In this document: piece after piece, positions 10,948 to 11,647 of the stretch
How the letters are laid out: each line of letters opens with the position of its first letter
How positions within the stretch are numbered: position 1 is the first letter of the stretch
Assembly (NCBI GenBank): GCA_027061995.1
Contig: JAMOUT010000042.1
Coordinates: 1 to 11,647 of the forward strand
Reading direction: 5' to 3'
Length of the DNA: 11,647 bases
From: Candidatus Aminicenantota bacterium
GTDB taxonomy: Bacteria; Acidobacteriota; Aminicenantia; JAMOAD01
Translations under genes and position numbers: made by a program
Notes under the pieces: model-generated
The model's input: the letters and a program-made list of their open reading frames with translations, nothing else
What the model was told of the DNA's origin: nothing
Databases searched by the model: none

Positions 10948-11094
10948 TAGAACTGAGAAGTGAGAACTGAGAAGTGAGAAGTGAGAAGTGAGAAGTTAAA
11001 ACTTAGAAGTGAGAACTTAGAAGTGAGAAGTGAGAAGTTAAAACTGAGAAGTTAAAACTAAGAACTGAGAAGTGAGAACTAAGAAGTGAGAAGT
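10948..11094 (+). repeat. Array A: 21 tandem 7-bp repeats, consensus GAGAAGT
   Basis: Twenty-one consecutive 7-bp units can be read without a single insertion or deletion. The unit fits [G/T/A]A[G/A]AA[G/C]T. Variants, with counts: GAGAAGT (11), GAGAACT (3), TAAAACT (3), TAGAAGT (2), and one each of TAGAACT, AAGAACT and AAGAAGT, with variation confined to positions 1, 3 and 6. Positions 2, 4, 5 and 7 are invariant. A degenerate unit, TCTAACT (11095-11101), follows and contains the stop codon of the adjacent minus-strand gene. The array lies between that gene and the argS-operon promoter. Confidence 0.95.
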
Positions 11095-11095
11095 T

Positions 11096-11455
11096 CTAAC
11101 TTTTTGGATTTTTCTTCTCTCTTAAAGTTTTTAAACTCTTACCTAAAATATTCCTTATTTCCAATGATTCTTTTATAAGCTCTTCAATCTTTTTACCCTC
11201 AAATATATTGGAATCTCTTATCAATCTCAACCATAAATTAGTCTCTCTTGATTCTTTAAAACATAAACTTATTTTATATATAAAATCATTTCTGCTTATA
11301 GCTCCTCTTGATTCTTCATAATTTGCTGCTATCGATGTCCCTGATCTTAATAATTGTTTTCCCATTTCTAATGACACCATATTTCTGGGCATGCTCTTGA
11401 CTAAATCAACAATTTTCAATGCAAATGAATAAATTCTTTCTTCAATCTCTTTCAT
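11096..11455 (-). CDS. Four-helix-bundle protein of the S23 / 23S rRNA intervening-sequence protein family
   Basis: This 119-residue, all-helical, basic protein matches the S23/IVP four-helix-bundle family, which also includes the Avd accessory protein of diversity-generating retroelements. Diagnostic segments are QLLRSGTSIAANYEES (34-49) at the end of helix 2 and FKESRETNLWLRLI (66-79) in helix 3. Length is normal (about 115-125). Avd forms a basic pentamer that binds nucleic acid and reverse transcriptase; most other members have no known role. Here there is no 23S rRNA gene, reverse transcriptase or variable-repeat pair nearby, so neither the rRNA-insertion nor the DGR role is supported. 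The ATG is preceded by a G-run ending 4 nt upstream (weak ribosome site). The stop codon TAG lies in a degenerate heptamer abutting array A. An inverted heptamer array lies about 48 nt upstream of the start. Confidence 0.9.
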   Translation of the reverse strand: MKEIEERIYSFALKIVDLVKSMPRNMVSLEMGKQLLRSGTSIAANYEESRGAISRNDFIYKISLCFKESRETNLWLRLIRDSNIFEGKKIEELIKESLEIRNILGKSLKTLREKKNPKS

Positions 11456-11502
11456 TTTCCCCCCGATTTTTTATTAAGTTTATTTTTCTTAAAACTTTTT
11501 TC

Positions 11503-11572
11503 TTATTACTTTTTACTTCCTACTTCTTACTTCCTACTTCTTACTTCTTACTTCCTACTTCATACTTCTTAT
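11503..11572 (-). repeat. Array B: about 10 tandem 7-bp repeats in the opposite orientation
   Basis: Ten consecutive 7-bp units occupy this stretch. On the plus strand they read TTCTTAC or TTCCTAC with edge variants (TTATTAC, TTTTTAC, TTCATAC, TTCTTAT). On the minus strand, in the phase used for array A, they read AAGAAGT or AGGAAGT. AAGAAGT also occurs as a unit of array A. The two arrays are therefore the same repeat family in opposite orientations, bracketing the S23-type gene. The terminal units are the most degenerate. A plus-strand frame crossing it encodes a 7-residue repeat only because three heptamers equal seven codons. Confidence 0.88.
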
Positions 11573-11574
11573 TT

Positions 11575-11590
11575 GCATGCGTAAGCATGC
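11575..11590. repeat. Short perfect inverted repeat between arrays B and C
   Basis: GCATGC (11575-11580) and GCATGC (11585-11590) flank GTAA. This gives a 6-bp hairpin with a 4-nt loop; each arm is itself a palindrome. It starts 2 nt after array B ends. It is more GC-rich than its surroundings and has no T-run, so it is not an intrinsic terminator. It may mark an element boundary or a protein-binding site. Confidence 0.55.
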
Positions 11591-11606
11591 GCCTCAATTC
11601 CCTCTC

Positions 11607-11647
11607 GATAAGTTAAAACTGAGAAGTGAGAAGTGAGAAGTTAAAAC
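11607..11647 (+). repeat. Array C: GAGAAGT-family heptamers, cut by the window edge
   Basis: Five complete units (GATAAGT, TAAAACT, then three GAGAAGT) and a partial TAAAAC run to the end of the window. They have the same orientation and unit variants as array A, including GAGAAGT followed by TAAAACT. The array clearly continues beyond the window, so its length and what it borders cannot be seen. Confidence 0.85.

Follow-up and report, generated by a model that had tools for sequence, protein, structure and literature searches.

What is a small gene of the S23 family doing between two inverted arrays of tandem heptamers, and do gene and arrays belong together? The question is raised by the right end of an 11,647-nucleotide stretch of DNA (the window) from a Candidatus Aminicenantota bacterium, which is the whole of contig C42 and ends, at 11647, inside a further array. 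S23 proteins are widespread and, to our knowledge, without known function, and we are aware of no accepted origin for the tandem heptamers found in cyanobacteria and elsewhere among bacteria. We likewise know of no settled answer on the mobility of S23-coding intervening sequences (IVSs), an open question since the early 1990s. We consider it probable that the window locus is one copy of a mobile element of ~0.45-0.7 kb, with S23 as its sole gene and inverted tandem words as its ends.

The layout in the original prediction, an array followed by a minus-strand S23 gene, an inverted array, a GCATGC hairpin and a third array, proved accurate by TRF and PF05635 (Table 1). The gene product matched PF05635 (23S_rRNA_IVP) at 62.8 bits (E 4e-17; cut-off 33.8). 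TRF resolved array A as 20.9 copies of a period-7 unit, AGAAGTG, and array B as 11.1 copies of ACTTCTT, also of period 7; read inward from either end, the word consists largely of purines (GAGAAGT / GAAGTAA). Array C, which TRF places at 11620-11641 and which is visible from ~11610, points away from the arm-S23-arm unit and, to judge from its letters, is probably the left arm of a neighbouring copy and lies outside that unit.

Table 1. Features at the right end of the window, in positions of the 11,647-nucleotide stretch.
Feature	Position	Strand	Remark	Basis
Array A	10949..11094	+	~21 GAGAAGT-type heptamers; arm 3' of the S23 gene	TRF
S23 / 23S_rRNA_IVP four-helix-bundle gene, 119 aa	11096..11455	-		ORF and PF05635
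Array B	11494..11571	-	~11 heptamers, orientation opposite to array A; arm 5' of the S23 gene	TRF
Palindrome GCATGC-GTAA-GCATGC	11575..11590		just outside array B	read from the sequence
Array C	11610..11647	+	probably left arm of a neighbouring copy, ended by the contig end	sequence and TRF
Proposed mobile unit (arm, S23 gene, inverted arm), 623 bp	10949..11571	-		analogy with cyanobacterial plasmid insertions

Among relatives of the window's genome, PF05635 genes are patchy, occurring in 16 of 40 with up to 11 copies, several of them broken. The flanks of 51 S23 genes from relatives were scored for inverted matches between the 200 bp upstream and the 250 bp downstream. A score of 25 or more was reached by 51% of these genes, by 1.5% of 131 control ORFs from the same loci, and by 1.2% of mismatched pairs whose upstream and downstream sequences came from different genomes; each S23 gene therefore has its own word, inverted on both sides. 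Arms A and B of the window scored 38, above a control median of 13 and maximum of 30, so that the array and gene layout of the window is not a product of chance. In the flanks of the 51 genes, sequence of period 7 covered 6-8% of the nearest 150 bp on either side but mostly 0-0.4% of positions more than 600 bp away, and it was the only period to stand out.

The same link appeared in a broad set drawn from a contig scan, which gave 80 loci, 77 of them usable, spread over about twenty phylum-level groups as judged from record titles. The median inverted score was 23 at the 77 S23 loci and 11 at 272 control ORFs (p 2e-34), and period-7 coverage within 150 bp reached 9.2% upstream and 6.4% downstream, compared with 0.1-0.5% at distances above 600 bp; across the 77 loci, coverage by periods 5, 6 and 8-12 was near zero. 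Over the relatives and the broad set, period-7 enrichment within 150 bp of S23 genes was about 20- to 60-fold. The original prediction had made its case depend on such co-occurrence and on S23 genes not keeping the same sites in related genomes. Arrays do also lie away from S23 genes, but they are strongly enriched beside them, and the S23 genes, when tested, were not at conserved sites.

The words themselves are common to S23 proteins above ~60-75% identity and unrelated below 50%, so that words diverge together with the protein. The two arms of any one gene stay alike, the downstream arm being the reverse complement of the upstream one (median 27), and array length varies between copies while both arms keep the same word. 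That the word changes while the arms go on matching could reflect recognition evolving in step with the protein, or simply the arms being inherited. About half of the S23 genes have weak or decayed arms, and there are none at loci L102 and L032.

Some loci depart from the common form or lie in particular surroundings. At two loci of relative G029 (L070 and L088) the S23 arms have a period of ~22 bp, of TTGTCATT... type, instead of 7, and at L089 (G022:C35) short repeated hairpins, GGGCGCTAGCCCA / GGACTAAAGTCC, flank the gene rather than heptamers. An S23 gene 59% identical to that of the window and bearing the same AAGTGAG word (L087 1-1320, G011:C7) sits amid CRISPR-like repeats (CCTAACTATGAGGAATTGAAAC) and short hairpins; a similar CRISPR-like repeat occurs in L094. 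In Riemerella (L188 1962-2378), an S23 gene with GGTTTAA-type arms lies within a suf (iron-sulfur) operon.

The most direct view of movement comes from cyanobacterial plasmids, in which we found seven pairs of filled and empty sites. At the best of these the insertion is exactly array, gene and array, with 5-bp direct duplications (GTAAT, TTCTA); duplications are clean at two sites only, sites 1 and 5. Site 1 is filled in Trichormus plasmid C (L186) and Scytonema plasmid 1 (L193), where it reads AAAAA-GTAAT-(arm, S23, arm)-GTAAT-TAACAAATA, and empty in three plasmids and others with 97-98% identity to the filled ones, where it reads AAAAA-GTAAT-TAACAAATA. At the same place a plasmid of Nostoc C052 carries an internally deleted S23, and a Brasilonema plasmid carries two arms without a gene, that is, a gene-less hairpin. 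Site 5 reads TTTAGG-TTCTA-(unit)-TTCTA-GTTATG in Nostoc ATCC 53789 plasmid pNsp_a (L271) and TTTAGGTTCTAGGTTATG in its empty counterpart (L225), and the ends at site 6 (L225 vs L197/L269), TAATG/TTATG, form an imperfect duplication.

Sites 2, 3, 4 and 7 show no clear duplication. The unit is present in one plasmid and absent from a relative at site 2, an integrase junction, and at site 7; at site 3 it lies between cas10 and cmr3 of a type III-B operon in a Picosynechococcus PCC 7003 plasmid (L198 1801-2157), the site being empty in PCC 7002 pAQ6 (L203). At site 4 a unit with GGGAGTA arms lies on the opposite strand between nrdB and nrdA of Nostoc edaphicum pNe_5 (L185 1849-3405), and Calothrix NIES-4105 has the empty form. 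Some of the pairs fall in conjugation-gene operons, and copies of one S23 subfamily with the GGAGTCA word occupy three different sites. Excision, a formal alternative in most pairs, would need the exact loss of both arms plus one repeat. These sequence comparisons support the reading of S23 and its heptamer arms as one mobile unit with the arrays as termini. Here the original prediction, which had made heptamers and gene one functional or mobile unit, perhaps ending in its arrays, is supported by the filled and empty pairs and has to give up array C, which would belong at most to a neighbouring copy.

The same pairs bear on whether gene and arrays came together through independent events, S23 being a host gene near which slippage-prone intergenic heptamers gather by chance. 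We find this scarcely credible: arrays elsewhere in the window's genome would agree with it, but the matching of words around the same gene, so rare in mismatched pairs, would not, and empty sites that lack the gene and both arrays together refute it for the cyanobacterial sites.

The window locus itself has no alignable empty site, the gpm neighbourhood in relatives being without S23 and its upstream sequence unalignable. By analogy, we infer that the window copy behaves like the cyanobacterial ones. The window's genome (2.36 Mb in 104 contigs) holds four S23 genes and 25 matches to the pattern AAGTNAGAAGTNAGAAGT with one mismatch allowed, the reversed control giving 0. Arrays of GAGAAGT type occur on C42 and, in short form, on C10 directly behind another S23 gene, and solitary ones on C2 and C29; solo arrays are few in total. 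A different word, of AGCCTCGAAGCTT type, adjoins three of the four S23 genes. Two copies of S23, one on C101 and one on C67, share 98.9% identity over 280 bp, with similarity that ends in the 3' arm and unrelated flanks beyond (the C67 contig begins inside the gene), a pattern such as recent movement within the genome would leave. The S23 genes on C101 (L033 3280-4020) and C10 (L032 4100-4360) lie amid degenerate AAGCCTCGAAGCTT repeats with a period near 8-9.

We propose that the element would insert at junctions between genes, oriented mostly as its neighbours are, and duplicate about 5 bp of target. Its arrays would change length freely by repeat gain and loss, both arms keeping the same word, usually a heptamer, and internally deleted copies, consisting of two arms around 40-150 bp, would spread as MITE-like repeats. 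Duplications of 5 bp are what a cut-and-insert reaction that leaves staggered ends would produce. The original prediction had seen no transposase, and indeed there is none inside the unit, nor is any recombinase detectable within arm-S23-arm units. S23 would have a direct part in mobility, as the catalyst or by keeping the folded ends in place for a host enzyme. From its association with the arms and the selection on it, S23 is most likely the element's own factor.

That selection is seen between S23 copies at different sites, for which dN is 0.09-0.15 and dS 0.86-1.3 (dN/dS about 0.1); given this low dN relative to dS, S23 is under purifying selection though the unit is not at a conserved place. 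Of 122 homologues from two subfamilies, 97-98% share residues Q34, S41, N45, E48 and E71, and R/K37 is conserved nearly as well; most of these polar residues occupy a single helix face, which would suggest a site as well as a fold. A profile of the window S23 and its relatives matched PDB 2rld (E 1.9e-37) and, weakly, 2gsc. Both structures have 5 chains, and by analogy with them S23 is predicted to be a pentamer. A search of phage records for S23 with one query protein gave no match.

Copies without the gene bear on how far the arms depend on S23. We used as query the AGACGTT arms of a unit (L074) from a genus of the window's class, which gave ~105 matches in relative G012, ~75 in G031, 40 in G024 and 35 in G018. 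Many as they are in G012 and G031, these two genomes carry no S23 gene, and S23 is thus dispensable or lost there. In most of the gene-less copies inspected, a centre of 40-150 bp separates two inverted arrays, and the fixed inner ends, GCAAGA...TCTTGC, are those of the S23-bearing unit; at L239 (G012:C5:37800-38900) three nearly identical gene-less hairpin units with AGACGTT arms stand in tandem. In sequence these copies resemble MITEs or REPINs. No transposase bounded by the arms was found in G012, where long inter-arm intervals held ordinary genes, and we accordingly rejected the idea that this genome has a partner element carrying a gene between such arms.

It follows from amplification in genomes without any S23 gene that one must ask whether S23 is a passenger, the inverted arms serving an ordinary transposase in trans and the gene perhaps bringing some unrelated benefit to host or element. 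Inverted termini with 5-bp duplications do look like a product of DDE transposition. A passenger would not, however, explain the link between S23 and period 7 across about twenty phylum-level groups while the word changes, and the copies inspected included no transposase gene with AGACGTT arms. We regard this explanation as unlikely, if with a real chance of being right, and prefer a direct role of S23 in the movement of its element.

A further possibility is that the arms are an RNA device, in which a stem in the operon transcript isolates S23 and is cut by RNase III, so that insertion into operons is tolerated and selection at the RNA level keeps the arms complementary. The Coxiella 23S IVS offers a precedent, with a 28-bp terminal stem, three tandem heptamers (GACAGAT) adjoining the S23p ORF on its upstream side, and excision by RNase III (PMC4990558). 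Orientation is also as this explanation would have it, S23 being co-directional with both neighbours in 85 cases and running against both in 4, but short control genes are co-oriented as well (100:23), so that the bias of S23 is partly ordinary gene order; what remains of it may come from dependence on read-through transcription. Arm mismatches on the sense strand show no bias to G:U (219, against 217 A:C), and the window transcript folds only slightly better than its shuffles (z -1.4). With no G:U excess and such weak folding, we rejected sense-RNA pairing as the reason for arm complementarity. Moreover, the amplification of gene-less copies would be left unexplained. We therefore hold an RNA device to be improbable as the purpose of the arms of the mobile element, for which RNA pairing may be a by-product.

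Two known kinds of enzyme might also move the unit, namely a reverse transcriptase, with S23 in the part of Avd, or a REP-type Y1 transposase (RAYT). S23 has an Avd-type structure, and Y1 transposases are present in 31 of the 40 relatives. A RAYT-like ORF (FLTICT...MPNHVHG), with other sequence, occupies the orthologous site in G012 (L238 1056-1664, G012:C11) where G018 and G024 carry the S23 unit. Against this, neither a PF00078 reverse transcriptase nor a PF01797 Y1 transposase was found in the window's genome, at 95% completeness and with its four S23 genes, and both enzymes are likewise absent from G011 (2 S23 genes) and G018 (8); G036 (10) and G005 (7) have no reverse transcriptase. Because of these absences from S23-bearing genomes, that of the window included, we discarded either enzyme as a required partner. 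Y1 enzymes, moreover, make no target duplication. Movement by either route is very unlikely, and we retain S23 itself as the candidate factor.

More generally, our reading would make S23 proteins, S23-coding IVSs and tandem heptamers components of a single mobile element. Should S23 participate in the reaction, it would represent a type of mobility protein distinct from the known recombinases. We hypothesize, tentatively and with rather more doubt than for the window locus, that S23 founds an unrecognised class of mobile element in most bacterial phyla. A protein of ~120 aa with an invariant Q-R-S-N-E...E polar site would act, alone or with host replication and repair, on foldback heptamer DNA ends, and 23S rRNA IVSs and many unexplained bacterial heptamer repeats would be its copies and relics.

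A search of the open-access literature returned no description of S23 with inverted heptamer arrays. Avd of diversity-generating retroelements (DGRs) has a related, pentameric four-helix-bundle fold; the window's genome, however, lacks a reverse transcriptase, and DGRs involve neither inverted arms nor insertion. An unexplained association of S23 genes with cas loci has been reported (PMC3936711, PMC10910872), for which insertion offers a simple reason, at least one case being the cas10/cmr3 insertion, which a close relative does not have.

REPIN/RAYT systems and bacterial MITEs (PMC3116915) share with the present units the many gene-less inverted-repeat copies beside a rare gene-bearing form, a feature seen in the relatives, the window's genome having only its few solo arrays; in contrast to REPIN/RAYT, the arms here are tandem heptamers of variable number and the companion gene is S23 in place of a Y1 transposase. 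Foldback, Galileo and Tetris of Drosophila (PMC3573991, PMC4079207) likewise have inverted termini of variable-number tandem repeats and non-autonomous forms, but they are eukaryotic, larger and moved by DNA transposases of known superfamilies, whereas the bacterial units carry S23 and no transposase. The STRR heptanucleotides of cyanobacteria and the TAACTGA repeats of Beggiatoaceae are, as here, intergenic tandem heptamers, and their descriptions treat them simply as repeats, neither connecting them with S23 nor making them the termini of an element (PMC4679880). Several of the sites are in Nostoc-type cyanobacteria, and the GGGAGTA and GGAGTCA arms of Nostoc and Trichormus plasmids are, in layout, likewise intergenic tandem heptanucleotides.

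The nearest known thing is the 23S rRNA IVS, which has an S23 ORF between inverted termini, with heptamers adjoining the ORF in Coxiella; IVSs with an S23p ORF have been regarded as selfish (PMC4990558). Whereas an IVS is part of a 23S rRNA gene and is removed by RNase III, the present units stand between protein genes, have long word arrays and target duplications, and involve no rRNA; a location in 23S rRNA was rejected for the window, in which Rfam gave no match. We infer that the Coxiella 23S IVS resembles such an element situated in rRNA.
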